Assembly (NCBI GenBank): GCA_025738555.1
Contig: JAOVFP010000001.1
Location: 248,001 to 312,000, forward strand
Direction: 5' to 3'
Length of the DNA: 64,000 nt
Source of the DNA: Cyathus striatus
Lineage: Eukaryota; Basidiomycota; Agaricomycetes; Agaricales; Nidulariaceae
Part shown: piece by piece, positions 29,944 to 55,741 of the stretch
Position numbering within the stretch: the stretch's first letter is position 1
Layout: each line of letters opens with the position of its first letter
Position numbers and translations under genes: made by a program
The notes under the pieces: generated by a model
What the model was told of the DNA's origin: nothing
Databases searched by the model: none
Seen by the model: only the letters and a program-made list of their open reading frames with translations

Positions 29944-31251
29944 ATGGCTGGTCCCAGGAGTAAGAGCCGTGCGTACAATGATCCAGATTATGAAATTCAT
30001 ATCCAGGTGGCTATTCAAGGGACAAAGGATAAGAAGTATAAGAACTACAAAGAAGCAGCTTTGGCAGAAGGTGTAAGCACTTTAACTCCTTTTGATTATC
30101 TTCTTGATTTCATAAATTCTTCCAGGTCGCACATCAAACAGTTTTAGATCGCGCAAAAGGAAAGCACAAATGCCATAAGGATGTGGCTGAAAGCCGTCGT
30201 GTACTTAACTCTACTGAAGAGGCGACACTTCTAAATTGGTCTGCACATGATGCAGAAAAAGGCGAACCATGGGATCGTCGTACTTTACGTGACCATGCTT
30301 CTGATTTGGCTGGTCAGTGAGCAGGAAAATGTTATGCATCTCGATTGATTAGCCGCCATCCAGAGATTGTTCCAGCCAAACCATCCAAACTCGATCCAAA
30401 GCGCGCGAAAAACTTCAATGAAGCTGTTGTTTCTGATTTTTACGATAAACTCAACTCAATTTACGATCAATATGGCGAGATACCCCCTGAACATATCTAT
30501 AACATGGATGAAAAAGGGATACAGCTTGGTGGAGGTCGGAAAAGTGATCCTCGGAAATATATTTACTTCCGCAAGCATCGTAATCGATACAGAATCAGTA
30601 GTGATAACCTGGAGTTAGTCACTGTTGTTGAATGCATATCAGCTGCTGGAAGTACAGTACCACCGTCATTTGTTCTCTCTGATGGACCTCTTCCCAATCT
30701 CTCACGTCTACCAGAGGGTAGCATTGGAAGGTATGTAACATAGTCATTGCATGCTCACTTGTTCTCAAATTTAATATAGTATCGCAACATCACCATCTGG
30801 ATGGACTGATGATGAGCTCACATACAAGTGGATGGAGAAAGTCTTCATACCACACGTGAAGGAGAACATTGTTGATAGCTCTAAGCCTATTGTACTCATA
30901 TGTGACGGACACGGCTCACATGAGACCCCAGAGTTGCAGAAGATTGTCTATGATGCGCTAGAAGAAGGACTCACAATAATTGTTCTGTGTTTCCCTTCTA
31001 AGTGTACTCATAAAATGCAACCACTCGATGTTGTTGTGTTCACACATAGTCAACGTCAATGGAGGGAGCATTGCGATGATTGTCTACATCAAGGGATTTA
31101 TGTCAACCGGTACAACGTTGTACAGAATTATCTCAAGGTTCGGAAGAAACACATGCTACCAGACTTAATAAAAGAATCCTTTCGTAAAACTGGTCTTTAT
31201 CCATTTAATCGGAATGTGTTCACAAAGGAGGATTTTGCTCCAAGCAAGGTC
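29944..31251 (+). pseudogene. pogo-like transposase, 5' part (DNA-binding and DDD domains)
   Basis: Exons 29944-30072, 30126-30730 and 30780-31251 give the first ~402 residues. The protein starts MAGPRSKSRAYNDPDYE and has a psq/CENP-B-type helix-turn-helix region (NYKEAALAEGVAHQ; EATLLNW; WDRRTLRDHASDLAG). The catalytic domain has NMDEKG (D at about 171), CDGHGSHET (D at about 287) and MQPLDVVVF (D at about 328); this DDD triad is that of the DDE_1/pogo group. An in-frame TGA at 30318-30320, right after DLAGQ, breaks the frame. The reading frame is then cut after codon GTC (31249-31251) by the KDZ element and resumes at 54362. Such transposases cut and paste their own element at TA sites. Confidence 0.85.
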
Positions 31252-31670
31252 GAGGCATGTAGCGGCATATGTGTGGTTCCACAATGGTACATAAATTGAG
31301 CCAAACGAGAGGTACATGGGTATGTACCTCTAACACTTTGAGGTACATGGGTACGTACCTGGACCTATCATAACCTAGTAATTCGTCAGTGCAATGTTTA
31401 ATAGTGAAACCTATGTAGCAATATAAGACTACATTCATATTAGGAAAGTGGTCATACTATGCCACATTGTCAAAATTATAAATATGTGGTTCAGCTAGAC
31501 TACAATTTTAACATGCATAAACCACATCCTGTGCTCACCTCGATACCCAAAATTTGAATATCAAGCTAATATAAATGCTAGAATATTATTTTGCGGTACA
31601 CTAAGTTGACAATATGTCTGTAGAATGTATAAATTGTAACGTGAAATGTAGTCTATAACTGGACTGGAAT
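31252..31670 (+). repeat. left terminal inverted repeat of the KDZ element
   Basis: About 420 bases align with the reverse complement of 53940-54353 over nearly the whole length with many substitutions. Shared landmarks are GTTCCA..TGGTACA, two AGGTACAT hairpins (31310-31329 and 31341-31360), ATGTTTAATAGT, TTAGGAAAGTGG, AATATGTGGTT and TGTCTGTAGAATGTATAAATT. The divergence between the two ends implies that they have evolved separately for some time or that only short parts are needed for transposition. Confidence 0.8.
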
Positions 31671-34600
31671 AATTGATGGGATGGACAGATGTAATAAGCG
31701 TGTGATATATGTTTTCCGCGTTCTGAAAATGACAGATGAGTCATCACATGAACGCAGCACGACGAGACTAGATTTCTGTCATCTGGTGAATGTAGCGGAA
31801 GGAGGCAAGATCTTAATTTTCACTTTTTCGCATTTATTAATGCATTATGAGGATGTATAATATGGAATAATTATATTATGTTATATCTATATCTAACTGA
31901 ACGGATCGTGCGTATTCTACATTTCTAATAGCGGTGTAGAGGATGTAAATTAATGTGGTAGAGGTGGTGCATGTAGACTGGATATCTTATAATTGATGGG
32001 ATGTGCCATACGCGGACAGAAGTGATGAGTGCGGGATATTTGTGATGCGCATTCCGAAAATAACAGATGAGTCATCACATGAACGCAGCGTGACGAGACT
32101 AGATTTCGGTCATCTGGTGAATATAGCGGAAGGAGGCAAGATCTTAATTTTCACTTTTTCGCATTTATTAATGCATTATGAGGATGTATAATATGGAATA
32201 ATTATATAATGTTATATCTACATCTAACTGAACGGATCGTGCATGTTCTACATTTCTAATAGCGATGTAGAGGATGTAAATTAATGTGGTAGAGGTGGTG
32301 CATATAGACTGGATATCTTATAATTGATGGGATGTGCCATACGCGGACAGAAGTGATGAGCACGGGATATTTGTGATGCGCATTCCGAAAATAACAGATG
32401 AGTCATCACATGAACGCAGCATGACAAGACTAGATTTCGGTCATCTGGTGAATATAGCGGAAGGAGGCAAGATCTTAATTTTCACTTTTTCGCATTTATT
32501 AATGCATTATGAGGATGTATAATATGGAATAATTATATAATGTTATATCTACATCTAACTGAATGGATCGTGCGTGTTCTACATTTCTAATAGCGATGTA
32601 GAGGATGTAAATTAATGTGGTAGAGGTGGTGCATATAGACTGGATATCTTATAATTGATGGGATGTGCCATACGCGAACAGAAGTGATGAGCGTGGGATA
32701 TTTGTGATGGGCATTCCGAAAATGACAGATGAGTCATCACATGAACGCAGCGCAACGAGACTAGATTCCTGTCATCTGGTGAATGTAGCGGAAGGAGGCA
32801 AGATCTTCATCTGTAATTTTTCGCATTTATTAGTGCATTATGAGGATGTATAATATGAAATAGTTATATAATGTTATATCTACATCTAACTGAATGGATC
32901 ATGCGTGTTCCACATTTATAATAGCGATGTAGAGGATGTAAATTAATGTGGTAGAGGTGGTGCATGTAGACTGGATATCTTATAATTGATGGGATGTGCC
33001 ATACGTGAACAGAAGTGATGAGCGCGGGATATTTGTGATGCGCATTCCGAAAATGACAGATGAGTCATCACATGAACGCAGCGCGACGAGACTAGATCCC
33101 TGTCATCTGGTGAATGTGGCGGAAGGAGGCAAGATATTCATTTGTAATTTTCGCATTTATTAGAGCATTATGAGGATGTATAATATGGAATAATTATATT
33201 ATGTTATATCTATATCTAACTGAACGGATCATGCGTGTTCTACATTTATAATAGCGATGTAGAGGATGTAAATTAATGTGATAGAAGTGGTGCATGTAGA
33301 CTGGATATCTTATAATTGATGGGATATGCCATACGCAAACAGAAGTGATAAGCGTGGGATATTTGTGTTGAGCATTCCGAAAATGACGAATGAGTCATCA
33401 CATGAACACAGCGTGATGAGACTAGATTCCTGTCATCTGTTGAATGTAGCGGAAGGAGGCAAGATCTTCACCTGTAATTTTTCGCATTTATTAGTGCATT
33501 ATGAGGGTGTATAATATGGAATAATTATATTATGTTATATATACATCTAACTGAAAGGATCGTGCGTGTTCTACATTTCTAATAGCGAAGTAGAGGATAT
33601 GAATTAATGAGGTAGAAGTGGTGCATGTAGACTGGATATCTTATAACTGATAGGATGTGCCTTACGCGGACAGATGTGATAAGCGTGGGATATTTATGAT
33701 GCGCATTCCGAAAATAACAGATGAGTCAGCACATGAACACAGCGCAACGAGACTAGATTCCTGTCATCTGGTGAATGTGGCGGAAGGAGGCAAGATCTTC
33801 GTTTGTAATTTTCACAATTATTAGTGCATTACGGAGATCTATCATATCGAATAATTATATTGTGAAATATCTACACCTAACTGAATAGATCGTGTGTTTC
33901 CTACATTTCTAATAGCAATGTAGATGATCTAAATAAATGAGGAAGAAGTGGTGCATGTAGACTGGATATGCTATGATTGATGGGATGTGCCATACGCAGA
34001 CAGATGTAATAAGCGTGTGGGATATTGGTTTGCACATTCCGAAAATGACAGATGAGTCAGCCCATGACCACAGTGCGACAAGACTAGTTTCCTGTCATCT
34101 GGTGAATGTAGCGGAAGGAGGCAAGATCTTAATTTTCACTTTTTCGCATTTATTAGTGCATTATGAGGATGTATAATATGAAATAATTATATAATGTTAT
34201 ATCTACATCTAACTTAACGGATCGTGCATGTTCTACATTTCTAATGGCGATGTAGAGGATATGAATTAATGAGGTAGAAGTGGTGCATGTAGACTGGATA
34301 TCCTATGATTGATGGGATGTGCCTTACGCGGAAAGATGTGATAAGCGTGGGATATTTGTGTTGCGCATTCCGAAAATGACAGATGAGTCAGCACATAAAT
34401 GCAGCGCTATGAGACTAGATTCCTGTCATCTGGTGAATGTGGCGGAAGGAGGCAGGATCTTCGATTGTAATTTTTCACATTTATTAGTGCACTATGGAGA
34501 TCTACCACATAGAATAATGTTATATCTACATCTAACTGAACGGATCGTGCGTGTTCTACATTTCTAATAGCGAAGTAGATAATCTAAATGAATGAGGAAG

Positions 34601-37140
34601 AAGTGGTGCATGTAGACTGGATATCCTATGATTGATGGGATGTGCCATAAGCGGACAGATGTGATAAGTGTGGGATATTTGTGATGCGCATTCCGAAAAT
34701 GACAGATGAGTCAGCACATGAACACAGCGTGACGAGACTAGATTCCTGTCATCTGGTAAATGTGGCAGAAGGAGGTAAGATCTTCATCTGTAATTTTTCG
34801 CATTTATTAGTGCATTATGGGGATGTATAATATGAAATAATTATATTATGTTATATCTATATCTAACTGAACATATCGTGCGTGTTCTACATTTATAATA
34901 GCGATGTAGAGGATGTAAATTAATGTGATAGAAGTGGTGCATGTAGACTGGATGTCTTGTGATTGGTGGGATGTGCCATATGCGAACAGAAGTGATAAGC
35001 GTGGGATATTTGTGTTGTGCATTCCGAAAATGACAAATGAGTCAGCACATGAACGCAGCGCGACAAGACTAGATTCATGTCATCTGGTGAATGTGGCGGA
35101 AGGAGGCAAGATCTTCATTTGTAATTTTTCGCATTTATTAATGCATTACGAGGATGTATAATATGGAATAATTATATTATGTTATATCTACATCTAACTG
35201 AACATATCGTGCGTGTTCTACATTTCTAATAGCGAAGTAGAGGATATGAATTAATGAGGTAGAAGTGGTGCATGTAGACTGGATATCTTATGATTGATAG
35301 GATGTGCCATATGTGGACGGATGTGATACGCGTGGGATATTTGTGTTGCGCATTCCGAAAATAACAGATGAGTCAGCACATGAACGCAGCATGACGAGAC
35401 TAGATTCCTATCATGTGGTGAATGCGGCGGAAGAACGTAAGATCTTAATTTTCACATTTTCGCATTTATTACTGCATAATGGCGATCTATCATATAGAAT
35501 ACCTATATTATGAAATATTTACAGTGTGATGATTCCTGAGTTATTTTTATCTTGAGTGTTCAGAAAACGACAGATTCCTAAAGCCTTTGCCAATCATGTA
35601 CAAATAGCGCACATTTGCTGTCATCTGGTGAATGTGGCGGAAGGAGACAAGATCTTAATTCTTAATTTTCGCATTTTTCAGAGCATTATGACGATCTATC
35701 ATATAGTATCATTATATTGTGGAATATCTGCATCTAACTTAATGGATCGTGTGTGTTCTACATCTCTAATAGCGAAGTAGATGATGTGAATTAATGAGGT
35801 AGAAGTGGTGCATGTAGACTGGATATCTTATGATTGATAGGATGTGCCATACGCAGACTGAAGTGATAAGCGTGGGATATTTGTCTTCCGCGTTCCGAAA
35901 ATGACAAATGAGTCAGCACATGAATGCAGTGCAATGAGGCTAGATTCCTGTCATCTGGTGAATGTGGCGGAAGGAGGCAGGATCTTCGGTTGTAATTTTT
36001 CGCATTTATTAGTGCACTATGGAGATCTACCACATAGAATAATGTTATATCTACATCTAACTGAATGGATTGAGCATGTTCTACATTTCTAATAGTGAAG
36101 TAGATAATCTAAATTAATGAGGTAGAAGTGGTGCATGTAGACTGGATATCGTATGATTGATAGGATGTGCCATACGCGGACACATATGATAAGCGTGGGA
36201 TATTTGTATTGCGCCTTCCGAAGTTGGCAGATGAGTCAGTACATGAACACAGCGCGACGAGACTAGTTTCCTGTCATCTGGTGAATGTAGCAGAAGGAGG
36301 CACGATCTATATTTTTAATTTCTCGCATTTATTAGTGCATTATGAGGATCTATCATATGGAATATGTATATGATGAAATATCTACATCTAACTGAATGGA
36401 TCATGCATGTTATACATTTCTAATAGCGATGTAGAGGATCTAAATTAATGAGGTAGAAGTTATGCATGTATACTGGATATCCTATTATTGATGGGATGTG
36501 CCATATGCGGACAAAAGTGACATGCATGGGATATTGATTTGTGCGTTCTAAATATGACAGATGCATCTGATAATTATACCAGTGCGACGAGACTAGATTC
36601 CTGTCATCTGGTTAATTTGGCAGAAGGAGGCAAGATTATAATTTTCACTTTTTCGCATTTATTAATGCATTACGGGGATCTATCATATGGGATAGGTATA
36701 TTGTGAAATATCTACATCTATCTGAATGCATTATGCATTTCCTATATTTCTAATAGCGAAGTATAGGATTTAAATTAATGAGGAAGAAGTGGTGCATGTA
36801 GACTGGATATCTTATGATTGAACAGATGTGCCATACGTAAACAGATGGGATAAGCATGGCATATTAGTTTGCGCGTTCTGAAAATGACACATGAGTCAGC
36901 ACATGAACGCAGCATGACGAGACTAGATTCCTATCATGTGGTGAATGTGGCGGACGAACGTAAGATCTTAATTTTCACTTTTTCGCATTTATTACTGCAT
37001 AATGGTGATCTATCATATAAAATACATATATTATGAAATATTTACAGTGTGATGATCCCTGTGTTATGTTTATCTTGAGCGTTCAGAGAATGACAGATTC
37101 CTAAAGCCTTTGCCAATCATGTACAAATAACTCACATTTG
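31670..37140 (+). repeat. left subterminal array, 331-bp unit, about 16 copies
   Basis: Unit starts, taken at the phrase TTGATGGGATGTGCCA, fall at about 31993, 32324, 32655, 32986, 33317 and 33648 (spacing exactly 331) and continue less regularly to about 36.8 kb. Each unit has a conserved core, GACAGATGAGTCA followed by CACATGAACGCAGCG, then CATCTGGTGAATGT and GCGGAAGGAGGCAAGATCTT. Copies near 32-33 kb are most alike, so they were amplified or homogenised last. A truncated unit at about 35500-35640 and the inner edge at 37040-37140 share a unique phrase, TTGCCAATCATGTACAAATA, which shows a block duplication of about 1.5 kb. Open frames of about 62 codons in many units are by-products. Confidence 0.92.
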
Positions 37141-37323
37141 CTGGGGTATCGCTCCTCGACACTCCAACATTTATTAGGGCATCATACTGCTTTATCTTAA
37201 GCAATAGTTATGGAGATTACATTCGTAATAGCGAACTACGTGACTGGTTATTCCAGCAATTTCAAGAAATACATTATTCATTATTTATTTTACATTACAT
37301 TTCTTGTTCGTTCTGCGTGTCCA

Positions 37324-38424
37324 TCATATTTTTAAATAATGTATGTCATAATCTTCCTGCCGCCACACTACATTCCAGTCCGGCTTCATTGTGCTCCATT
37401 CTTCGTACGTTCCATTGTAATCAAAGCGAACCCATGTCAACTTCTTACCCACTTCATTCAAGTTGTATTCTCCTCTTGAAGACGGCAACCATCCATTACC
37501 ACCACTGGACCGCATTCTGTACCAGCCTGAGATATCTTGATCAGTAGGTGAGGCTTCATGTTCGACGTTGGAGCTGGATGCCGATGGTGGCATTGGCGGA
37601 GTAATTTGGGTCACAAGGCCCTCCCAAAACCTTTCCAACGTTGGGGGCGCAGGAAATTCGGACGCCAATTGTTGTGCTTCATTGCTCCACTGCAAGTATT
37701 CGTCTATATCGTATGTATCATCAACCAGTCCATATAGCTGAAGGATTTCCTTGTCGAATAACCCTATGATGTGCGAGTCGAGGGCCGGGACTACAATTTT
37801 TAGAATGAAGAGCGCATAGCGTGCATATTCAAAATTGAGGTACAGATACCGCGCTACAACGGGCGGATTACCGTACTCTAGTAGTATGGACATATCTGCA
37901 TAATTGATGTTAATTCAATTTGTAATCTATAATAATATATTCTTACTTTCGTGGATAATGTCGCGGCTCAAGACAGGAAGGAGGGTGAGTTTTGGATGAC
38001 TTCCTATCCCATGACAGTTCTGTATTCCTTCAATACTGCATCGAGAGCAGTTAGGGGGGCCGTGGACGAAGTCAATTGTGCAGGCCTCCTCTACCAGAAC
38101 GCGAAAGTAGACTTAGTATAATCAACATTTAATTGACTCGATTGACATACCTGCTTCAAAGCATCTATCGCATGCATACTTTTTCGTGTACTCTCTCAGT
38201 TCATTAACTATATTTTTCAGCGTACGCCAGACTGGAATCACGCCTTGCCCCAAATTGGAGTATGGCCGCACATAGGGTCCCTAATGATCAACCAGTTAGA
38301 CAAGACGCACGCCGAGAATAAGACTCACTGGAATGGTGTTGAGAATGAAGCTCCGGAGTGGCCCCCCCTTCATGCCGACCACATAAAAATATTGAGGGAC
38401 CTTGGTGGAGATAGTTTCCTGCAT
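37324..38424 (-). CDS. KDZ-element cargo protein A with Zn2Cys6-like cluster
   Basis: Four exons on the minus strand (38424-38329, 38280-38151, 38090-37947, 37895-37324) give 313 residues with consistent phases. The start is supported by the first exon, whose Met-Gln-Glu start leads into FYVVGMKGGPLRSFILN and matches the first exon of the gene at 49711 (FYAVGMSDSPLRSYIIN). Residues about 65-100 hold cysteines in the spacing C-x2-C-x6-C-x10-C-x2-C-x7-C, with PNCSRC in the second half. That spacing fits the fungal Zn2Cys6 binuclear cluster, although the usual basic residues after the second Cys are absent. A conserved helical region follows (ARYALFILKIVVPALDSHI) and the C-terminus is Trp/Tyr-rich. 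Function is unknown; a DNA- or protein-binding role is an inference. Confidence 0.7.
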
Positions 38425-38449
38425 GCTGGCGAGACTGGAAGTAGAAACT

Positions 38450-38640
38450 GAGAGAGGGTGGGTTGGTGTAGGGAGATAGTGAGTCGGGAAGTGATGAGTA
38501 CGAGTGTTTTAAGAGGGTGGGTTGGTGTACGAAGGAAGGAATAGTGAGCCGGGAAGTTACGAGGACGAGTTTTTTGATGTGCAACTGAGCTGGATATGTC
38601 CGTGTTTCAGGGATACGAGTTAAAAACACTACGGCTCACC
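38450..38640 (-). promoter_or_regulatory. upstream region of cargo gene A with shared motif and short repeat
   Basis: A two-copy repeat of about 70 bp (GAGAGGGTGGGTTGGTGTA...GGGAAGT) occupies 38452-38575. At about 38590-38630, some 170-200 bases before the gene A start, the phrase CCCTGAAACACGGACATAT (minus strand) is found again at 49589-49607 upstream of the gene E start, in the same orientation relative to that gene. Conservation outside the coding region suggests a promoter element or a remnant of the inverted arm duplication. Confidence 0.5.
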
Positions 38641-38919
38641 AAAGATGTGCCTAAATTCAAGTTTTCCATGTTTTCCTCTAGCCTATTAGTATCACCGATG
38701 CCGGATATAGATTATCTATTTTAAGTAATTCTAACGGGACCGGATAAAGACCAGTATAGTAATAGTTCTGATGGGGCTTGTTTCGTCGTATCTATGTGTT
38801 CTCCATTTGAAGTCGTCACATCCACAGAGAAAACTGCTCTTCATTTGCTGCTGTAATGACAAAAGGAAGCAAAGATGGCTGTACTATGGTGACAAAGTGT
38901 TAAACATTATTTTCTACCT

Positions 38920-39757
38920 TTAATACACGGGGCTATCGAAACTAAAATCCACTAGTCGTAGTCCTTTGTTGTGTATACATTCAAACAACATGCTTCTATA
39001 AGATTGTACCTCTTCTTTAGGTGGCAGCCATTGAAGAGCTTTACGTGCCGTCCATCCTATGTAGTCATATCCTTCGGGATCGTCATCGGGTAGAATTAAT
39101 TTATTTGCCAGGAGGACTGATACCGGGAGTTGCTGCAATCGTCGAAGAGAAGGAACAACTTCCCCAATGAGGTAATATATATATCGATAGAATTCCGCCC
39201 ACCGATACCGATCAGCGTACCTGTGGCTTGCGCGGTTGTAGGCAAAAAGTATACAATTCACATCTTAAAAATTTTTTAGTTATGAAAGTTAAAATAAATG
39301 GTGTGTTGAATGAAGACTTACTGTTATTTGTTACTTCGATTGCGTGACGAGGCAAAATGTGTAGAGGTGGAAATTTAAAGATATTATCCATCTCGGCTGG
39401 AAATTTGCAATTGATTCGATGTTCTATTTCACATTGATAACAATACGTATATGGATGCTCGAAGTCAAACCGGCAGAAATTATTTGAAGCGATGCATGTC
39501 CGACAACGCCGTGAACGATGGAAGCATATGATGAATTTTAGCAATTGATCGACGATCCAGAACGGCGACAATTGTATCTCCCTTGGTGGGCGGAACTCGG
39601 TCAAATGCTAGATGGAAATTAGCGTATGTAAACAGAGGGGATTGAGAGGTCTTACCCTTGTCGTGTACAAGGTAAAAAGTTGGAGGCGTGGGAAATCAAC
39701 GTCGAAGTCAATGTAATTTCGGGAATCGTTTTCATCAGAAGTAAGGTACCAAGGCAT
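38920..39757 (-). CDS. KDZ-element cargo protein B with Zn2Cys6-like cluster
   Basis: Three exons (39757-39656, 39607-39322, 39263-38920) encode 243 residues. The cysteine spacing C-x2-C-x6-C-x10-C-x2-C-x7-C (RRCRTC ... FCRFDF ... YCYQC ... NC) is identical to protein A, and the downstream helix (RWAEFYRYIYYLIGEVVPSL) lines up with ARYALFILKIVVPAL of A. Intron phases differ slightly: the intron between the third cysteine and its neighbours in A is absent here. It shares little else with A, so the split between them is older than that between A and E. It lies about 500 bp upstream of A in the same orientation. No lesion is visible. Confidence 0.65.
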
Positions 39758-40075
39758 GTTCAAGAGTAGATGGAATGGAGAATGGTCAGTGCAGCCCTTC
39801 AATTTATATCATTTTTTATATTCATGCGGAACAGTTCACTATTTTCCCTCGAGGTAAGTCAATCTGAATCTAGTTATCGGAGAATTCTAAGGAACGTATT
39901 AAGTCCACACATCGAGCATATTGCAAACACCCATAATGGGACATAGACATCAACAAATTGAAACATGAATTCTATTTTAGGTCGACGGACATACAGCCAC
40001 ACATGCATTGCCATGCACACTACACAGGGTCCTTCTGCAGACGAATAGGGGAAGCAAGCTCCCCCAATTATTAAA

Positions 40076-42526
40076 CTAAATTATACCCATCCTTTCTTCG
40101 ACAGACATGCGATCATAGGAATCTACATCTATAGACATGAGTACAAACCGCTGTGTTCGGTTGCTCCTAGCTGCAAGTTCGTTCAGACGTGTGATATTGC
40201 GAGTCACCATCGTCATGCGCCTCCTCTCCTCATCCTGATCAATCGTAATCTCCACATCTCCTGTGAAGTAATCGTTAGCCATGAGCAAGGTTTCCCTTGA
40301 GATGTTCTGCGCGATCATATCTCGTGTCTGAGGAGTCACAATGTCTTTCCAGAAAAAATCTTCGGTAACTACCGTACCTGTACTGACTTCAGTACATCAG
40401 AGGGACGTAATCTAAATAATTAACATACCTTCAACGAGTCCAGAGACATTCCAAGAATGATACCATTGCAGCTCGTGTATGGCTGTTTCCACGAGACATC
40501 CACAGTCGAGGGTGTCAGAATTTTTAAGATTGTAAAGCGTCCTACGGGAATCTTCCGCGCTCCGCTTCGAATCATCCTGACCCTTAACAGTATTCTTTGC
40601 CCCTGGAACCCCAAGAACGAGAAATTTTGAGCTATTTTCTTCCCCATTCCGTTTGGTGGCCTTAGATCTACGATGCGACAGGCAGATCGTATTGTTAACA
40701 TTTGTAGCGAACGCCTCTAGGGTTAGAAGTCGGTCGGAAAATACGGTGGCGGGCAGTTGCGACAGTCCTTCTTCCCTTTTTGCTGTCGCTAAATGTCGAG
40801 TACTTGAGGTAAGTATGTTTGGGCCGTCGTCAATGAACTGCTTTAGCTCAGCTATCGTTAAATATTAGAACAATAAGTCATTTCAAACCAAAAGCAGAAA
40901 CATACTAAAGCTACCCTTCAAATCGGTTGGTGCTGTATTGACAAATGTCGATCTATTTTTAGAATACCCAGTCTCATAAGAGTATGGGATTGGATCACGA
41001 TTTCCATCGTTCCGTGGGGCTATGCTGTATGTTAATACAGGTTATGTGGGTGCAATATCTAATCACACATACGGATGTAAAGCCCTTCTTCGGAAAAATA
41101 TTTGTGACTTGTAGCTTTTAATTTTGCTAAGGCATTCGGGATATAATTGGATGCTAATGTTTGACGAACTTTGGGAACGTCGCCTTCCCAGAAGATTGAC
41201 CCAGCGATTGGATCAGTAGCGATAGTAGTGGTAGGAGCAGTGGCGGGTGGAATAGTTCTATGAACATCAAGGTCTATTTAATATACGTCAGTATAAGTTC
41301 AACATAGCACTAGGAAGATACTTGCCCATGGCTGCTTCCGACCCAGCGTTAGCAGCAATAGCGGTAGGCAGAAAATTATTTTCTGCTTCACTATCACTGA
41401 CGAGGTCCTTGCCTATATCTGCATCCGATGCAGTAGTGGTAGGCAGTTCCTTAGTGCCTCCTTCGCTATCAGCGTCAAGGTCTATTTAATATATGTCAGA
41501 ATAAGTTCAACATAGTGCTAAGAAGATACTTGCCCATGGCTGCTTCTGACAAAGTGTTAGCAGCAATAGCAGTAGGCAGAAAATTATTTTCTGCTTCGCT
41601 ATCACTGATGAGGTCCTTGCCTATATCTGCATCCGATGCAGTAGTGGTAGGCAGTTCCTTAGTGCCTCCTTCGCTATCAGCGTCAAGGTCTATTTAATAT
41701 ATGTCAGAATAAGTTCAACATAGCGCTAAGAAGATACTTCCCCATGGCTACTTCTGACAAAGCGTTAGCAGCAATAGTGGTAGGTGGAAAATTATTTTCT
41801 GCTTCACTATCACTGATGAGGTCCTTGCCTATATCTGCATCTGATGCAGTAGTGGTAGGCAGATCCTTAGTGCCTCCTTCGCTATCAACGTCAAGGTCTA
41901 TTTAATATAGGTTAATATAAGTTTAATGTAGCGCTAGGAAGAAACTTGCCCATGGCTACTTCCGACGCAGCCTTAGGAGGAGTAGCGGTAGGCAGCACGT
42001 CATTTCCTCCTTCGCTAGTAAAGTCAAGGTCCTTGCCCATATCCTTGCCCATTTCTTCATCCGATGCGGTGTTAAGACCAGTAGCGATAGGCACCACGCT
42101 ATTGCCTCCTTTGCCAACAATGTCAAGACCAGAAGACGTTGTAATTACTTTGGTCAGTATTGACATGACCGAGGATTTTCCCAGGGGATCCTAATATCAT
42201 TTTTCATCATTAAATAAATGTATGAATAAAAAGATGCTTACAACCACCGGATATAATGGAGGAAGGTAAGAAACCTCAGGAAATTGGGAAATAAGGCAAA
42301 TGGAACATATATTTAGATAACAACGTACATTTGGAGATGAAGCTGGCTTTGTCATGTCTCCCCCAGGGTTTTGTTCCGTGACTGGAGTTGAAATTTTTTG
42401 TTTCTTAGTTATCTTGCGCTTGGAAAGACTAGTGGAAGGCTGAGATGAAGTGCTCTGTAATCTAGACGACTGTCTGATGTTCGTGGGATGGGGAGTAGCC
42501 GGAGGAGTGGAGGACGACTTTGCCAT
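40076..42526 (-). CDS. KDZ-element cargo protein C, unknown function, duplicated exons
   Basis: The minus-strand gene starts at ATG 42526 (MAKSSSTPPATPHPTN), with a Ser/Thr/Pro- and Lys-rich N-terminus (SKRKITKKQK, a possible nuclear signal). Next come four related acidic exons: one diverged (about 42180-41948) and three nearly identical (41899-41325). Each reads like DSEGGTKELPTTTASDADIG and ends AAMG before a GTATCTTC donor. Further exons follow: IFWEGDVPKVRQTL, APTDLKGSFS, AELKQFIDDGPNILTSSTRH, a segment with DCGCLVETAIHELQWYHSWN and a last exon (IVTPQTRDMIAQNI ... MSVEERMGII). I recognise no family. Several splice sites near 42.2-42.3 kb are uncertain. Confidence 0.5.
41271..41940 (-). 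repeat. 209-bp tandem exon-intron duplication
   Basis: Three near-identical units and the start of a fourth repeat every 206-210 bases, marked by AAGGTCTATTTAATAT at about 41270, 41480, 41690 and 41896. Each unit contains one whole exon and its intron, so each copy adds about 54 residues to protein C without changing frame. Confidence 0.8.
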
Positions 42527-45140: not shown

Positions 45141-45260
45141 GGAGAAATGGGTAAGAGGTGAACAGATGGAGTAAAGGTGAGAGGTATTTTTTGGCAGCGG
45201 AAAAAACCAAGGCAAGTATAAGGCACAATTTGTGCAGGATGATATGGTACCTGTTTTCTG

Positions 45261-45542: not shown

Positions 45543-45590
45543 GATATTATTTTTGAAGCACCGAATCGTTTCTTACAACTATCTCCTGCA

Positions 45591-48500
45591 ATGTCCTCCA
45601 TTCCACGTAAACGTCGCGAGAAATTTAAGGAGCCAGAGGAGATCAAACGTATCCCGGGATTATATGCTGAAAGAGAACCAGAAAGGATAGTGCGTGCCCC
45701 AGGACTTTTTAAATCCTCAACGCTATCATTATCATCATTTTTGTCGGCTTCAGCGTCTGTGTCGGTTTCGTCATCTGGGTCCTATGAGCCAGTCTCATCC
45801 CCTCAAAAAAAACAGCGATTGGTGAAGAACCCACGCTCTAATACTGGTCAACATCGATCATGCAACCCTATGTCTGTGTCGAGGAATGATGAAATATCCA
45901 GTGAATTAGTTCCAATTATCCATGGAGGTTCAGATGTGCTCCAGGAATATGATGATAGTCTACCATTGCGGTCTGATGGGACGAATGAAGAATACATTCT
46001 CAATAATTTTCCCTTCCTAAATGATAGCAGTGCACCTTTCAGTGAAGTGGATCTCGACGACATCTTTTATTCATACCATGTCGGCGTGTTTTATGGTGGG
46101 ATTGGTTTTGAACGAGTTAGCAAGGAGTTGTTTCTTGTTCAAGGTTGGGATTCCACAAAGAATAACAGTATTCCAGTAAGTGGTTCATAGATCTATTTTC
46201 TGTGTACGGTATTACTGATGACCAAAATCTAGAATCGTTGGTTTCATCTGCAATGGTGGCTAGTGGATGGAGATATGACTGCAGTGTGCACCTGCAATTC
46301 CAAAAAGTCACCTTGCATACACGCTAAATTTCTGTATGTCTTTGGTAAGGAAAGGTTCTCGAATAGTAATGATATTCCCAATGGTATTTTTTCGCAACTT
46401 CAACACATATCCCATAACTAACTCATTCATATAAAGTACCATCTGATGTGACACTATTTCATCGCGAAATATTTCCAGAGTCCAATACATCGTATCATTT
46501 GTTTTCAGTGAATATGGGAGCAGGTCTCCTTGATCGAATTATTATATCACATGAAGGCTTGGACGATGGTAGTGGCAACTGGGAGTGCCAGAAATGTAAC
46601 CTGTCAATGTGCCCGCATATTGTTAAAACATGGCACAAGCTCCAGCAAATCCTGCACTGCGATCCTGAGGCATGAGATGACATCGCACTCAATTACGACC
46701 TCTTGGAGAACTCAAGTAAGCTAATATTTCATACATGTTTCCCTGCTGACACGTTCCATACAAGGTCAACAATTCCACTCTGATTCTGATCCAGACAAAG
46801 GGATATCGTATCTACCGATAATGCCCCCTAGCTGGGCGCGTTTGGAAACAGACGCCAAGCTCTACCATAAAAAGCCGAGGCCACTACCTCCACCACCTCT
46901 TCTTATTGAATTAGGTGAACATATGCGGTGTATATGCGGTTCTGGACTTGAAAATTCAGGACCAATGGTGATCAAATCATGTACTGTGTACGGGCTTAGT
47001 GGTGCACATGTGACCAAAATTCAACTTCGGAAGTGTAACAACTGTCTTTGCTCAGACCGATTCATCGGTCCCAACTGCAGAGATATCGAAATCCTGAATC
47101 TTAATAACCATTACTTATTTACACACGAGCTTCTGGAGCACTATACATCGGCTTACACCATTTCTCCTACTCCTTTCGTGGCTTTCGTTTTGGACGTCAG
47201 TCGTGGTTACGCAGACAATGGAACCGGGATCCCTTTTGTCAATGATTTCATCTTCCGTGCCACTTGGTTCACATATGCCGATCTCTTATGTTTAGAAAAT
47301 GACATGCGGTGTCACATCTGCGGTCCGGCTCCAGATAATGTAATTTTTGATGGTGTCTCCATCTCGTTCAGCCGCAAGCAGCTTCGTTCCTCCATTAAAC
47401 CACCGACCACTATATCACCACATTCGGAACGAAAAGACAAAGTATCTTATGTCAGCAAGCAGCAGCTCATACTGGACCATAAACTACGGAAATTAATACG
47501 TACCGTCATGTCCAAAAAAACACATATTAATAATTATTTCATTCGTGGTGATGACGAAGAAAGTATGCTTCTGCAACTACCTGATGTCAATCCGGCATTG
47601 GGACGTCTGGCGGCACGTTTATTCATGGGAGACACTTGGCCAGATGATAGTTATGTCTATTTGTTTTCGGAGGTTCGTATATTATTATTCCAGTAAATAT
47701 TTAGATATTAACTATTGTTTCAACAGATAGCAGCAGAAGAATCGATTGTACAGATGGTGAACAGGCTTGGCTACGAAGCCCTTAGAAATTTCAATCACAC
47801 GAAAAGTGACGACACCCTCTCTCGATTGGTAAACATTCCATCAATCTATCTGGTTTTGCGACACGAATATACCAAAGAAAACACTTGTTCGGAAGACCTA
47901 ATTGATGTTTGCATCTGGATAGAAAGCCGTGCACATGAGACGTTGGATAAGCTTATAGCGCAAAGTCCGTCTACTAAATCTAGTCCTGTTTCGGAAACTC
48001 CAAAAGATGACTGGAAATTGGTAAGTGTCTGTTTTCGCTTAATCATTTTCGTTCGTTGCGACCCGTAATATTAGACAGGTAGTTGCTACAGCATGCCGCA
48101 GATACGACATAGGCCAATCTATCCTGGGTTGAAACACGATAGGTCGCAAGACAAAGGTGGACAAGACCGGGGTGCTGAGTGTTCGAAGTACTATGCTCAG
48201 TACTCGCCCCAACGCCTGACCGGAGGAATCATGGCCGCCTGGTGTACACATTCCATATGCTATGGTTTTCATTCTATGCCAAGCAGCGAAGGTCGCGATG
48301 ATGTTTTCTCGGCTCTCTATACACGATGGAGAGTTCCGCCAAAGCGGGTGATTTATGACTTCGCTTGCGCTCTGGGTCCTTACTGCATGACGCGAGAAGG
48401 GGATTTTTTTTCCGAGACTAAGTTTCTAATTGACCACTTCCATGCCGCAGGTCACAAAAAATGTTCAACAGCCTGCTTTCTGAAACGATCTGTTACTGCA

Positions 48501-48692
48501 GATCCCCGATTAAAAGGTCTCAACTCGAGCACCGCCGAGTGTGGTAACTCGGTGATGGCGCGTATCCGCAAGTCAGTCAGCTACATGGGGCAATACCGTG
48601 CTACATTGTACATGAAGACTTTTCTTTGTATCTGGAACCGCACCAAAATGCAAAAACTCGCTGGATATAATGCAATGCATAATAGTAGTTAA
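45591..48692 (+). pseudogene. KDZ-type transposase (cysteine-cluster type), one in-frame stop
   Basis: Six exons (45591-46175, 46233-46344, 46437-46715, 46765-47672, 47727-48020, 48075-48692) join in phase to 931 codons. Parts in order: a basic N-terminus with a doubled RxPGL(Y/F) phrase; a SWIM-like zinc motif (VCTCNSKKSPCIHAKFL); a second cluster (CQKCNLSMCPHI); CICGSGLENSGP and CNNCLCSDRFIGPNC clusters; then the conserved catalytic-type region RHRPIYPGLKHD, CSKYYAQYSPQRLTGGIMAA, WCTHSICYGFHSMPSSEGR, VIYDFACALGPYCMTRE, DHFHAAGHKKCS and STAECGNSVMARIRKSVSYM. This matches fungal proteins named for KDZ (Kyakuja-Dileera-Zisupton) transposases and their CxC clusters. The only lesion is TGA at 46673-46675 inside exon 3, so the copy is either recently dead or needs readthrough. 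Confidence 0.85.
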
Positions 48693-49710
48693 GAATACTA
48701 CTATTCTTCGTTGTAGTAATCTGTTGACATGGACAATTAAATAATTTGATTAGCCATTTGCAAGGCACTGAAGAAAATATGTGTGCCAAGGGTGCATAGA
48801 TACGAAAAATTTGAAAAGATGACAGTGATATCTCGATGATATGTCAAAAGGGTTACAACGCGGCGCTCTGTGAGCTGACCTCTAAGCTATGCCAAAAAAG
48901 ATAAAATAAGGGGTGATAACAAAAGATAATCAACTTGAATTCTGAGCTGTACGCGGAAAAAATACGATAACGACATGAAAAATTTAATCGGAAAGGCACT
49001 GTAAGAAATATGTACCATCAAGGGTGTAAAAATCTGAAGAAATTGAAAAAGATGCCGGCAATGTGGCGTTGATATGTCAAAGGAGAAAAAATAATGGTGT
49101 TCTGTGAGTTGAATTCAGAGCTATACCCAGAAAAGATAAAATAACGGGTGATAACAAAATGATAATGGACTTTAAGCTATAACCAGAAAAGAGAAAATGA
49201 CAGTGTTCGATGACTCCAATGATTCTCAAGAGAAATAATTCGGAATAATCCGAAATGCGGATTTGTTATTTTGGTAACATGCCCGTATGTCGCTACTTCG
49301 ATGACTCCAATGATTCTCAAGAGAAATAATCCGGAATAATCCGAAATGCGGATTTGTTGTTCTGGTAACATGCATGTATGTCGCTATGGGGCTAATAAGG
49401 TAATGTACCTTCGATCGCACCCACTGGCTCTCAAACATACATACTTCTAATGAGAAAAAGCTACAGAGAAACCTTATCGTACAGAAGTGCACTACGTCAC
49501 TATGCGAATCCTGCATAAGGTTCGGGAGTACTGATTCACGCGAATTTTTATTTGGTAGTAGTACGTAACGCCGTTTCTTAACTCTTATCCCTGAAACACG
49601 GACATATTCAACTGAGTCTGTCATGTACTTTTATAAAACACTCGTCAGTGTCCTTTATTAATTTCTATCAAACTACTCCCCCACCTTCAAATCTTTTGCT
49701 CATACCCGAC
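48693..49710. other. internal spacer of the KDZ element with short tandem repeats
   Basis: No gene. At 48790-49170 three loosely related stretches share phrases such as GATAAAATAAGGGGTGATAAC. At 49208-49385 a unit of about 91 bp (starting CGATGACTCCAATGATTCTC) is present twice with few changes. The part from 49570 to 49710 is the upstream region of gene E and holds the motif shared with gene A. Confidence 0.6.
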
Positions 49711-50674
49711 ATGTCCAACAGCCAGTTCCAAAATGCAAGGGTGTTCTTCTATGCTGTAGGAATGTCCGACAGTCCCTTGAGATCATATATCATTAACTCC
49801 ACGAAAGTAAGTTAATTTCATGAGTATGTATAATCTCACACTCACGGTTTTCAGTTTCCAGTAAGCCTTTTTGGCCTCGACTACCCCGACGAGGATGCAA
49901 TCGTTACCTCGCGGTTACGTCGCGAGGTGAAGGAAATAGAAGATTACCTCAACAAATATATATGCAAAGATTGTTTTACCGACGGTATGGAAATCCTATA
50001 TTCTAAATGTGACAATATTTACTTAACATATGCTCATAGATGCTTATTGTGTCGTGGATTTTGGAAATCTTGGCCCGACCTGTGAAAGGTGCAAATCGAG
50101 GGGTGACAGCGAGAACTGCTTGGGGAAGATGGCTGGATTCCAGAAATGGACTTTCTACCTGCGAAGAGTTTAAAACATTATGTTAAAAGTACGTATGGTT
50201 TCTTTCATGTTACTACCACAGATATTAACGTAAAATTACATAGATATCCTTGTTTTAAACAAGTACAGGATACCACCACAGATTGCACAATTCCAGTACA
50301 CGCATTATGAAGCCGCGCGATACGCTCATTATCTTATCGAAATTGTTGTACCGTCTTTAGTTAACCACATACGCATGGTTGGAAGCTTGGAGTCACTACA
50401 AATGAACAATATCGTCGACTCACATTTCAACTATGATGATTTTAAGACATGGGGCGACGACATCACATCCCTTCTACGAAAATTGCCCCGCGAGAACGAA
50501 TTGGAGGTATTCTGGAGGAACCTATCGAAGAAAAACATGACATTGCCGCCATCGCCTCCATCGACTCAAATGACGTCTTCAGGATGGGGTAATTGTAGCA
50601 AAATGGGATTTGAACTGGCACATCCCATCAGTGAAGGGAAATCCAGTCTACATGCACCACTTCTACCTCATTAA
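49711..50674 (+). pseudogene. KDZ-element cargo gene E, relative of A, truncated
   Basis: Exons 49711-49806 and 49855-49984 have the same lengths (96 and 130) and phases as exons 1 and 2 of gene A. Exon 3 (50040-50188) continues the cysteine pattern C-x2-C-x6-C-x10-C-x2-C-x8-C (YICKDC ... PTCERC ... NC), but its 149 bases do not fit the expected multiple of three: after CLGKMAG the matching residues (LPAKSLKHYVK) are in another frame. The last exon, from about 50240, matches gene A (ILVLNKYRIPPQIA; ARYAHYLIEIVVPSL) and then runs into the 331-bp array at about 50640, losing the C-terminal third. So it has a frameshift and a 3' truncation. It is transcribed toward the right end, as A is toward the left. 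Confidence 0.65.
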
Positions 50675-53600
50675 TTTAGATCCTCTACATCGCTATTAAA
50701 AGTGTAGAACATGCAGGATCTGTTCAGTTAGATGTAGATATGTCATAATATAATTATTCGATATGATTGATCCCCATAATGCATTAATAAATGCGAAAAA
50801 GTAAAATTAAGATCTTGCCTCCTTCCGCTACATTCAACAGATGACAGGAATCTAGTCTCGTCGCGCTGCGTTCATGTGCTGACTCATCTGTCATTTTCGG
50901 AACGCGCAAATAAATATATACCATGCTTATCACTTCTGTCTGTGTATGGCACATTCCATCAATCATAGGATATCCAGTCTACATGTTCACATCTACCTCA
51001 TTAATTTAGACCCCCCACATCACCATTAGAAATGTAGAACATGCACGATCCATTTAGTTAGATGTAGATATGTCACAATATAATAGTACCATATGATAGA
51101 TCCTCATAATACTCTGATAAATGCGAAATATTACAAATGAAGATCTTGCCTCCTTCCACCACATTCACCAGATGACAGGAATCTAGTCTTGTCGCGCTGC
51201 GTTCATGTGCTGACTCATCTGTCATTTTTGGAACGCGTAAACAAATATACCACACTTATCACTTCTGTCCGCGTATGGCACGTTCCATCAATCATAGGAT
51301 ATCCAGTCTACAGGCACCACTTCTACCTTATTAATTTAGATCCTCTACATCGCTATTAGAAGTGTAGAACACGCACGATCTGTTCAGTTAGATGTAGATA
51401 TATCATAATATAATTATTCGATTTGACTGATCCCCATAATGCATTAATAAATGAGAAAAAGTAAAATTAAGATCTTGCCTCCTTCCGCTACATTCACCAG
51501 ATGACAGGAATCTAGTCTCTTCACGCTGCGTTCATGTGCTGACTCATCTGTCATTTTCGGAACACGTAAACAAATATACCACGCTTATCACTTCTGTCCG
51601 CATATGGCACATTCCATCAATCATAGGATATCCAGTCTACAGGCACCACTTCTACCTTATTAATTTATATCCTCTACATCGCTATTAGATGTGTAGAACA
51701 CGAACGATTTGTTCAGTTAGATGTAGATATATTATAATATAATTATTCGATATGATTGATCCCCATAATGCATTAATAAATGAGAAAAAATAAAATTAAG
51801 ATCTTGCGTCCTTCCGCTACATTCAACAGATGACAGGAATTTAGTCTCGTCGCACTGCGTTCATGTGCTGACTCATCTGTCATTTTCGGAACGTGCAAAA
51901 AAATATACCACGCTTATCACTTCTGTCCGTGTAAGGCACATTCCATCAATCATAGGATATCCAGTCTACAGGCACCACTTCTACCTTATTAATTTAGATC
52001 CTCTACGTCGCTATTAGAAATGTAGAACAGGAACGATCTGTTCAGTTAGATGTAGATATGTTATAATATAATTATTCGATATGACTGATCCCCATAATGC
52101 ATTAATAAATGAGAAAAAGTAAAATTAAGATCTTGCGTCCTTCCGCTACATTCAACAGATGACAGGAATCTGGTCTCGTCGCGCTGCAATCATGTGCTGA
52201 CTCATGTGTCATTTTCGGAACACGCAAACAAATATCCCAGGCTTATCATTTCTGTCCGCATATGTCACATCCCATCAAACATATGATATCCAGTCTACAT
52301 GCACCACTTCTACCTTATTAATTTAGATCCTCTACGTCGCTATTTGAAGTGTAGAACACGCAGGATCTGTTCAGTTAGATGTAGATATATCATAATATAA
52401 TTATTCGATATGATTGATCCCCAGAATCCATTAATAAATGCGAAAAAGTAAAATTAAGATCTTGCCTCCTTCCGCTACATTCACCAGGTGACAGGAATCT
52501 GGTCTCGTCGCGCTGCGTTCATGTGCTGACTCATCTGTCATTTTCAGAATGCGTAAACAAATATCCCACGCTTATCCCTTCTATCTGTGTATGGCACTTC
52601 CCATCAATCAAAGGATATCCAGTCTACATGCACTACTTCTACCTCATTCATTTAGATGATCTACATCACTATTAGAAATGTAGGAAATGCACGATCCGTT
52701 CAGTTAGATGTAGATATTTCACAATATAATTATTCTATCTGATAAATCCTCCTAATGCACTGATATATGCGAAAAAGGAAAATTAAGATCTTGCCTCCTT
52801 CCGCTACATTCGCCAGATGACAGGAACCTAATCTCATCGCGCCGCGTTCATTTGCTGACTCATATGTCATTTTCGGAACGCGCAAATAAATATACCACGC
52901 TTATCACTTCTGTCCGCATATAGCACATCCCATCAATGAAGGTAAATCTAGTCTACATGCACCTCTTCTACCTCATTTATTTACATCCTCTACTTCGCTA
53001 TCAGAAATGTAGGAAGCGCATAATGCATTCAGTTAGATGTAGATATAGCATAATACAATTATTCCATATGATAGATCCTCATAATGCACTACTAAATGCG
53101 AAAAATTAAAAATGATGATTTTGCCTCCTTCCGCCACATTCACCAGAAGACAGGAATCTAGTCTCTTCACGCTGTGTTCATGTACTGACTCATGTGTCTT
53201 TTTCGGATCGCGGAAAACCAATATCCCACGCTTATCACTTCCGTCTGCGTATGGCACATCCCATCAATGAAGGTAAATCCAGTCTACATGCACTACTTCT
53301 ACCTCATTAATTTAGATCGTCTACTTTATCATTAGAAATGTAAGACTCGCACAGTCCATTCAAATAGATGTAGATATTTCACAACATAACTATTACATAT
53401 AATAAACCCTCATCTAATGCACTAATAAATGAGAAATATTAAAAATAAAGATCTTGCCTCCTTCCGCTACATTCAACAGATGACAGGAATCTATTCTCGT
53501 TGCGCTGGTTTAAATTTCCAATGCATCTGCCATTTTCAGAACACGGAAAACTATTATCCCACGTATATCACTTCTGTCTGCATATGGCACATCCCATCAA

Positions 53601-53935
53601 TCATAGAATATCCAGTCTACATGCACCACTTCTACCTCATTTATTTACATCCTCTACTTCGCTATTATAAATGTAGGAAATGCACGATCCATACAGATAG
53701 ATGTAGATATTTCATAACATACCAATTTCATATGATAGATCCTCCTAATGCACGAATAAATGCAAAAAATTAAGAATTAAAATCTTGCCTTCTTCCGCCA
53801 CATTCACACAATGACAAGGATCTAGTCTTGTAGCGCTGCGTTTATGTGCTGACTCATGTATCAATTTCGCATGCAACACAAACTACTCACGCTTATCACA
53901 TCTGTCCATATATGGGGCATCCCATCAATTATTCA
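50640..53935 (-). repeat. right subterminal array, inverted 331-bp unit, about 10 copies
   Basis: The same unit as in the left array, in reverse orientation. Landmarks (ATCCAGTCTACA next to CATCAATCATAGG) fall at about 50.95, 51.28, 51.61, 51.94, 52.27, 52.60, 52.92, 53.25, 53.59 and 53.91 kb, a spacing near 330. The core again holds TGACTCAT (reverse complement of ATGAGTCA) and AAGATCTTGCCTCCTTCCGC. The array starts inside the 3' end of the gene at 49711, whose normal C-terminal coding part is missing. Confidence 0.92.
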
Positions 53936-53939
53936 AGTC

Positions 53940-54353
53940 CAGTTCTTATAGACTACATTTTACATTACAATTTATACATTCTACAGACACGTTTTCAACT
54001 AGGTGTACCGTAAAATGATATTCCATCATCTATAGTAACTTGCTGTAAAAATTTTGAGAGTCGAGGTGACCACAGGATATGATTTTTGCGTGCTACAATT
54101 GTAGTTTAATAGAACCACATATTCATAGTTTTTGAAAATGTTAGCGGAGTATGGCCACTTTCCTAATACAGATATAGTCTTTTATCGCTACAATGTATTT
54201 ACTATTAAACATCACACTGGCTAATATCTAGCTCACTGTGCATTGAGGTACATGGGTATGTACCTGTTCGTTTACAGGTACATACCCATGTACCTGTCAT
54301 TTAATATATTTTTTGTACCACTCTGGAACGGCACATCACAGACTACCTATCTG
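53940..54353 (-). repeat. right terminal inverted repeat of the KDZ element
   Basis: This is the inverted partner of 31252-31670. It contains two AGGTACAT hairpin units at 54246-54265 and 54276-54295. The first has stem AGGTACAT / ATGTACCT around a GGGT loop; the second is the same unit in the opposite orientation. It ends exactly at the 8-bp duplication. Confidence 0.8.
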
Positions 54354-55741
54354 GCAAGGTCACATCGACGGTGGTTCATACACCAGATGACTATCCGGAT
54401 GATATTCCTAGCTCTGACCCTGCAGTCATGACTTCTGACGAAGATACAGATAATGGCGATACACCCTCCACTATTTTGCATGGAAAGAAGCGAACAATTC
54501 TTGACCTTGAGCTCTCAGATGAAGGCAGTGATTATGCAGAATGGGATAATGACAATGATGACGACTTCCACGTCACAATGGATGACGATAATAGCGATAT
54601 CGAGCACGATACACTTGGTTCAAGTGTCAATAGTCATCGTAATGAAGGTGATAGCAACGAAAATTTGGAGAAAGAACTTAATGATTATGCAGAATCACTG
54701 CGCTATGATACACGGCATTCTTCTCCAAATTTGTTTACACACGCAGATAAACTTATTCACGAGTGTCTTAAGGAAATGGCTAGCTTCACAGATATTTTGG
54801 ATGCGGCAAAATCTACGGATGAACTTCTAAAAGAGGTTTATGCATTACGACGCCAGGTTTCAACTCTGACTGAAGCTCTTCGAAGTCAGACTGCGCTTAC
54901 AACTGCAGCTAATTCTCACTGCACGATAATGGGCCGTGTAAATAGTGATCTTCGAACTCGACTCGAAAATTCCCACAAGAAGTCCAATCGTGGTGCTTCA
55001 ACGAAGATAAAGGGAAGGTTTCTGACACATCCAGAGCTTATGGAGGCCCATAAGAAAGATTATGAAGTGCATGCTGCAAAAATAAAAGCCGCAGAGGAGA
55101 AGCAAAGGCAGAAGGACCATAGATTGGAGGAAATTGAAGCACGCATCCGTCACGACGGCGTAAGTAAAACATTTGATCATCCACTTTCGTCGTACAAGCG
55201 CAAGGATGAGCTTCGTACAATAGCTCGGGCATTAGGCCTCGCTGAGGATGGGAAAATGACAGTTGTATCTCTCATGGGTAGTATTCGTACTCACCTGACA
55301 GAGAATGAATTGACGTTGCAGAAAGATCCTCGATTTTCAGGTCTCTTTATGAATAAACGGCGTCGTTTAGATGCACCTCTTCTAGAACAGAATGCCGATA
55401 ACAATGGAGATGATAACGACACAATCAACTTGGCATCATCTTCTAGGACTGAGGTATTTGGTGATATGGGATCTCAACCTCGTTATCCGCATTTACCCCC
55501 CCATGCTATTTATAATCCTTCACATATACAACACTACTCACCTGCGATAGGAGGTTCAGTGACATTACAGGCGGCTTTTCATGGTGCACACTCCAATCCG
55601 AGTTATCAGATACATCCTGGTACATTACCCACGAACCCACACAGTCATTGGAATGGACGTCACTATACTGATGATTACCAGAACTACTATACCCAACCAC
55701 CAAATTACGGCTCTCATCCTGATCACGCTCCAAGGCCATAG
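54354..55741 (+). pseudogene. pogo-like transposase, 3' part (acidic linker, coiled coil, SAP-like region)
   Basis: This is the displaced second half of the transposase whose first half ends at 31251. It begins in the duplicated GCAAGGTC, in the same frame, and reads TSTVVHTPDDYPDDIPSSD, then an Asp/Glu-rich stretch, a coiled coil (LLKEVYALRRQVSTLTEAL), a charged helix (AAKIKAAEEKQRQKDHRLEE), a SAP-like segment (PLSSYKRKDELRTIARALGL, then DPRFSGLF) and a Tyr/His/Pro-rich tail ending HPDHAPRP. The internal ATG at 54371 could start a 456-residue protein, but the match to the usual C-terminus of this transposase family and the precise junction show it is a fragment. About 300 bases of AT-rich DNA separate it from the right terminal repeat. 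Confidence 0.85.

Follow-up and report, generated by a model that had tools for sequence, protein, structure and literature searches.

Features of the locus

The window, a 64,000-nucleotide stretch of a Cyathus striatus contig (JAOVFP010000001.1), contains an insert of 23,102 bp at 31252-54353 that interrupts the reading frame of a pogo-like transposase. The features of the insert and its borders are listed below by window position.

30775..31251, plus strand: part of the host pogo-like transposase frame that precedes the insertion (PF03184 DDE_1, 51 bits)
31244..31251, no strand: left 8-bp target-site duplication, GCAAGGTC (from the sequence and the end comparison of copies)
31252..54353, plus strand: whole element, subfamily II (from borders, copy alignments and end alignments)
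31252..31650, plus strand: left end (GAGGCATGTAG...), matching the right end as an imperfect inverted repeat
31683..37046, plus strand: left subterminal array of ~331-bp units (31683-35523, 11.6 copies; 35618-37046, 4.3 copies)
37324..38424, minus strand: gene A, modelled with four exons and 313 aa, containing two CxxC pairs and paralogous to F
38920..39695, minus strand: ORF group B, a doubtful gene, codon-position signal absent
40076..42610, minus strand: gene CD, with a basic N-terminus, repeated acidic segments and a conserved C-terminal domain
43496..44246, minus strand: gene E, model; adjoins KDZ in divergent families too
45591..48692, plus strand: KDZ transposase gene, 6-exon model, 931 codons, TGA in frame at 46673-46675
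49711..50674, plus strand: gene F, mirrored counterpart and paralog of A, with a provisional join of the 3' exon
50616..53929, minus strand: right subterminal array, 10.1 copies of a 329-bp unit running opposite to the left array
53954..54353, plus strand: right end (...CTACCTATCTG)
54354..54361, no strand: right 8-bp target-site duplication, GCAAGGTC (from the sequence and the end comparison of copies)
54362..55741, plus strand: continuation of the host pogo-like frame, right of the insertion (joined-frame alignment)

The 8-mer GCAAGGTC was found at 31244-31251 and 54354-54361, with a third copy within the window at 26038. Without the insert and one 8-mer, the host sequence reads ...FAPSKV followed directly by TSTVVHTPDDYPDD... 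in a single open frame of 618 residues, with the insertion site at residue 159. A genome search with the left flank returned five more pogo-like copies at 71 to 74% DNA identity, and residue 159 was crossed by the tblastn alignment of the joined frame in 5/5 uninterrupted paralogous loci (spans 1-175 in L050, 1-505 in L051, 1-523 in L052, 1-367 in L053, and 1-189 in L054). At the insertion site, L054 reads APSRVTST. Judged by these alignments, the five loci are equivalent empty sites, paralogous rather than strain-level. The initial annotation had placed the flanking 8-mers at exactly these positions, and its claims that the pogo-like frame is rejoined in phase and that the element is nested inside a pogo-like transposon both agreed with the restored frame, the DDE_1 match in the left flank and the uninterrupted paralogs.

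Elsewhere in the window, a frame at 19324-20259 matched PF20231 (DUF6589; E 7.8e-64), long frames at 8461-10119 and 13978-15513 gave weak F-box-like matches, and a 17-bp tandem repeat of 5.9 copies was located at 22970-23069.

Ends and copies of the family

The genome searches covered the 107.45-Mb assembly (G000) alone and disregarded introns. The left 400 bp of the element produced 40 scored matches, 33 of which began at base 1 or 2 and extended through base 400; the remainder were four matches cut short and three cross-matches to right ends. The last 400 bp produced 67 matches, many being pieces or cross-matches. Both ends were present in 21 copies (single-ended copies were not counted), of which 18 were compared; C22:101197-123782, C2:1153879-1177149, and C4:193651-234951 were left out of the end comparison. 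Element ends were fixed by homology, independently of any duplication search. The terminal sequences were common to all 18 copies, one of which has two right ends, and the 8-mers just outside them were identical in 15/18 copies, agreed at 7/8 positions in two, and agreed at 3/8 in the recombinant copy described below. All 15 perfect duplications differ from one another. The predicted outcome of a search with both 400-bp ends, namely, other copies with the same ends and different 8-bp flanks, was therefore obtained, and the exact borders that had been proposed were upheld.

The imperfect inverted repeats noted at the inner edges of the 8-mers were likewise recovered, at 76% over 383 bp (53954-54336 against the minus strand of 31269-31650). 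Hence, two of the features by which KDZ elements are recognized were found, the 8-bp target-site duplication, as in Zisupton, Dileera, and KDZ1, and terminal inverted repeats. Target preference was weak, with a purine at position 1 in 15/17 duplications and A or T at position 4 in 16/17. Copy length ranged from 17,553 to 37,719 bp, and copies differ by segments that are present in some and absent in others. The window copy is without an intergenic segment of ~1.1 kb, made of repeated ~385-bp units, at 43298-43306; this segment is present in full or large part in 6/7 other fully read copies and as a 183-bp remnant in C14.

The KDZ transposase

The KDZ domain PF18758 was detected in the last exon at 28.9 bits (E 1.2e-6), above the cut-off of 26.6; on a 587-aa piece of the transposase it scored just below that cut-off, at 25.7 bits (E 1.1e-5), and on the relative P0087 at 25.4 bits. 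The KDZ-associated CxC domain was also present, as PF18717 (CxC4), at 121 to 122 bits. A protein search with the transposase found 184 relatives, the named ones among the 120 listed being from mushroom-forming fungi, and full-length identity to protein-database relatives reached 45% among the matches listed, a level at which proteins of the host itself would seem to be absent from that database. In an alignment of 44 sequences, D177, D477, and E537 of the 587-aa piece occupied invariant or near-invariant acidic columns. A confident structure model of the relative P0016 was closest to the ISCth4 transposase and retroviral integrases, with modest scores; no KDZ structure was named among the matches listed, which excludes nothing.

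Substitutions were biased toward third positions in all six transposase exons. An intact transposase was found in 0/8 copies read: the window copy carries one in-frame stop, each of the eight carries one to four, and two carry a frameshift in addition. In two copies, 118 and 58 bases were missing from the transposase reading. Present activity is thus unsupported.

Cargo genes and their association with the transposase

Genes A and F are 31% identical (E 9e-22), occupy mirror positions beside the two arrays, and are both read outward. A single-sequence protein-database search with gene A yielded no relative among 315 candidates, and ORF B matched A over 17 residues only. In gene CD, the conserved C-terminal domain is encoded by exons at 40429-40851 and 40076-40377, and a 208-bp tandem occupies 41267-41995; in L056 and L059, the corresponding tandems measure 171 bp and 117 bp, respectively. 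CD was treated as one gene because, in the relative P0123 (623 aa), the basic start, acidic repeats, and conserved C-terminus are united in a single protein. Beyond this genome, a protein search with the CD profile found nine proteins, all from Cyathus striatus; matches of P0122 in this genome reached 89% at most. The profile had no PDB match and, against domains, only a weak match to PF12965 (E 0.0055). The last exon of gene E ends in a lysine/glutamate-rich stretch that appears coiled-coil-like by eye.

No known domain was found for E, CD, A, or F in domain searches. Matches of gene A to PF18769 (APOBEC1; E 0.047) and of gene F to PF14599 (E 0.051) were too weak to be counted as evidence, and a structure model of CD was discarded as too poor (pLDDT 41). 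No Pfam match to TET/JBP was found among the ORFs scanned; a genome-wide Tet_JBP search gave no signal, but its controls were silent too, and it was hence uninformative.

Third-position bias was observed in cargo exons A4, C2, E2, D1, F1, and F4, and was not observed in A1 to A3, C1, C3, D2, E0, E1, F2, F3, or ORF B. Synonymous and nonsynonymous substitutions numbered 44 and 39 in E2 and 50 and 65 in C2. With such a mixed frame signal, parts of the gene models may be wrong or weakly constrained. The contents assigned to the insert by the initial annotation can be judged accordingly: the KDZ-type transposase was confirmed by PF18758 in its last exon and by CxC4, and the gene is not intact, given the in-frame TGA; of the five other genes, cargo was indeed present, but ORF B showed no sign of selection on its frame.

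The order and orientation expected for KDZ, E, and CD were found at 24/32 giant-family E matches and at 12/18 divergent E matches, one of these 18 being a 70% fragment. The rows counted were 50/52 for E, 50/54 for CD, and 56/70 for KDZ, those omitted being mostly second pieces of included loci. Protein identity to the divergent families was 34 to 42% for E and 32 to 44% for CD, with a few short fragments left out. A second, divergent family was represented on C5, C6, and C16 (L056, L058, L059, and L060 to L063), where the KDZ genes are 76 to 78% identical to that of the window in the last exon. They are accompanied by E and CD and lie beside arrays of ~320-bp units, which in C5 and C6 had no blastn similarity to the 331-bp unit. 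These arrays are inverted as far as read (77% for a left unit against the right array in C5; one side only was read in C6 and C16). At L056:7554-8298, beside KDZ, open frames occupy the position of the giant-family gene F and are not F-like at first sight.

Since E and CD stay with the transposase across families, they may be helper proteins, although with no known domain to go by, this role is guesswork. Alternatively, they could be chance passengers kept by descent and without a role in transposition, as would suit the same want of a domain and a purifying-selection signal that is modest and absent in several exons. Mere passengers would not be expected to retain synteny and mostly open exons across families at 34 to 42% and 32 to 44% identity; we regard the passenger explanation as the less probable of outcomes, yet one with considerable weight.

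Inverted arrays, subfamilies, and core inversion

The large repeat arrays ascribed to the insert proved to be inverted ~331-bp arrays on both sides of the core. Left and right units (329 to 331 bp) were 79 to 87% complementary in the 25 longest pairs listed, and the inverted layout was found in 8/8 copies read, one right array being reduced to two matches. Closer to the termini, the motifs GGTACAT/ATGTACC occur four times at 31286-31348 and four times at 54247-54294. In eight copies, every one of the 16 ends had two to seven such motifs within ~140 bp (four or five at 12/16), against 0.15 per kb in the window outside the element. The end alignments also contain a 31-bp minisatellite that varies between copies.

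Fixed differences at both ends divided the copies into subfamilies I and II. Seventeen copies have a single left and a single right end; in the 11 of these that belong to subfamily I, the core is inverted relative to the ends, and in the 6 of subfamily II, including the window copy, it is oriented as in the window. End type and core orientation, the latter read from the strand on which the KDZ and E exons lie, were concordant in 17/17. When the core itself was compared in seven further copies, it was inverted relative to the ends in 4 of the 6 that have a single end of each kind. Core alignments covered four subfamily-I copies, one retaining only about half of the core. In C4_651, only about 7 kb of core is left. 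Left-end identities had raised the idea that the window copy is a chimera of the two subfamilies; this was dropped, as it belongs to subfamily II at both ends.

The remaining copy, C12:3959729-3981544 (L026 to L028), carries a right end at both termini, one of type I and the other of type II, and flanks that match at 3/8 positions. Its 445 diagnostic sites are almost all of type I as far as element position 16634 and almost all of type II from 17405 onward, the switch falling in the transposase region. The missing duplication fits a crossover that joined two insertions, and this copy is such a crossover hybrid.

These data are best explained by one inversion through the arrays when the subfamilies originated. 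Frequent flipping of the core is unsupported because neither subfamily is mixed. The inverted state could also have arisen by an older exchange of ends between elements with opposite cores, without array recombination, and we give this route substantial, though lesser, credence. In its favor, end types are fixed per subfamily, and the C12 copy demonstrates that core crossovers can give a copy new ends; against it, each end is closely alike between the subfamilies, and inverted arrays with the complementarity given above, in the 25 longest pairs listed, stand at the borders of the core.

Sequence decay

In the core of eight copies, 714 singleton changes were counted, of which 404 were CpG transitions. 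The C-to-T rate was 79.6 per 1,000 at CpG versus 5.4 elsewhere. Such strong loss at CpG is a mark of methylation-linked decay. In the core of the window copy, the CpG observed/expected ratio is 0.88; that CpG is still so frequent points to a recent insertion.

Interpretation

Taken together, the insert is very probably a member of a family of giant KDZ-superfamily DNA transposons, of the cut-and-paste type, in a mushroom-forming fungus. For its movement, a D/D/E transposase supplied by some copy would bind the GGTACAT palindromes near each end, cut at both ends, and join these to the target DNA through a staggered cut of 8 bp. Stop-bearing copies such as that in the window would have moved before they decayed or been moved in trans, and E and CD would act as helper proteins of the element. 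The inverted ~331-bp arrays may extend the inverted repeats to about 4 to 6 kb and may provide the substrate for the recombination that would once have turned the core around between the subfamilies. Recombination of the core between copies also occurs, as the one hybrid demonstrates.

A quite different possibility is that only the ends and arrays form the mobile unit, which would be foldback-like and nonautonomous, with the 15-kb core as passive, captured host DNA. The symmetry of arrays and ends, relative to which the core inverts, the broken transposase in all eight copies read, and the short core of C4_651 (about 7 kb) would all be compatible with such a unit. However, the core encodes a KDZ transposase, and enzymes of this kind are known to produce 8-bp duplications; the trio of KDZ, E, and CD also occurs together in a family whose array unit is unrelated; and most of the core is kept in 6/7 other fully read copies. 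We consider this account improbable. An assembly artefact or a chance 8-mer, for which the third occurrence of GCAAGGTC in the window might speak, is already refuted by 17 further copies, whose terminal sequences agree and whose flanks are independent, and by the host frame restored in phase, and its probability is negligible.

Returning to the KDZ transposon, a more far-reaching proposal can be offered tentatively, and we would doubt it sooner than adopt it: that this KDZ lineage is a four-part machine of transposase, helpers E and CD, and inverted satellite-like arrays, in which the arrays are working parts that also enable the core flip and recombination between copies. Under this proposal, the length of the array unit (~320 to 331 bp) would be conserved and its sequence would not, and the repeat tract of CD would grow by tandem duplication.

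The family provides a clean, multicopy example of a giant mushroom DNA transposon whose borders are proved by numerous independent insertions. Two orphan proteins, E and CD, are tied to its transposase by cross-family synteny and are thereby testable as transposition helpers. Giant elements with inverted arrays are seen to invert their cores and to recombine with one another, which bears on the argument, put forward in passages of PMC12477816, that ectopic recombination limits element size.

Comparison with known systems

The comparisons below draw on passages of the cited papers. Starships are giant, cargo-carrying fungal elements with a tyrosine-recombinase "captain" (PMC13066641); the Cyathus element has a transposase of another kind, KDZ. 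Teratorn of medaka is a giant element in which piggyBac-type ends are joined to a herpesvirus-like genome (PMC6431247). It shares with the Cyathus family long inverted repeats and a division into two subtypes distinguished by an inversion inside the element, whereas its transposase is unrelated to the Cyathus KDZ transposase.

Among KDZ elements, the TET/JBP-carrying Kyakuja, Dileera, and Zisupton occur in fungi, including mushrooms, and carry a second gene (PMC12730594). Dileera and Zisupton make 8-bp duplications, and the Kyakuja families described there have 7-bp duplications and no terminal inverted repeat (PMC12730594); the Cyathus element, with 8-bp duplications and terminal inverted repeats, departs from Kyakuja on both counts. 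In Cryptococcus neoformans, KDZ1 to KDZ3 have terminal inverted repeats of 139 to 241 bp, are about 9 to 11 kb long, contain CxC1, and have been shown to move, with duplications of 8 bp for KDZ1 and of 4 to 8 bp for KDZ2 and KDZ3 (PMC12810828). KDZ1 and the Cyathus family have in common the KDZ transposase, terminal inverted repeats, and the 8-bp duplication. They differ in that the C. neoformans elements are CxC1-type and ~9 to 11 kb, with no arrays mentioned in the passages concerned (PMC12810828), whereas the Cyathus family is CxC4-type and giant and has arrays.

The closest parallels in size are algal. KDZ elements of Ectocarpus reach 30.3 kb, the giant families having nested insertions, accessory genes in many cases, and an often broken transposase gene, and a mobile 31.7-kb KDZ element of Chlamydomonas is cited in the same paper (PMC12477816). 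The giants of both share superfamily and size with the Cyathus family, and those of Ectocarpus also share nested insertions, additional genes, and broken transposases. Particular to the Cyathus family are its fungal host and three features that were not found in passages of PMC12477816, namely, conserved E and CD, the inverted ~331-bp subterminal arrays, and the core inversion; the word "subterminal" has 0 occurrences in its text. The initial annotation had held a 23-kb KDZ element with such cargo and architecture to be undescribed. Larger elements in PMC12477816 remove size from that claim; cargo synteny, arrays, and core inversion stand. In the literature searched, which mostly excludes subscription papers, there was no description of the Cyathus giant KDZ family or of its combination of features. 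The kind of element is therefore already known, and what is new, as far as that literature extends, is the combination of cargo synteny, inverted arrays, and core inversion.
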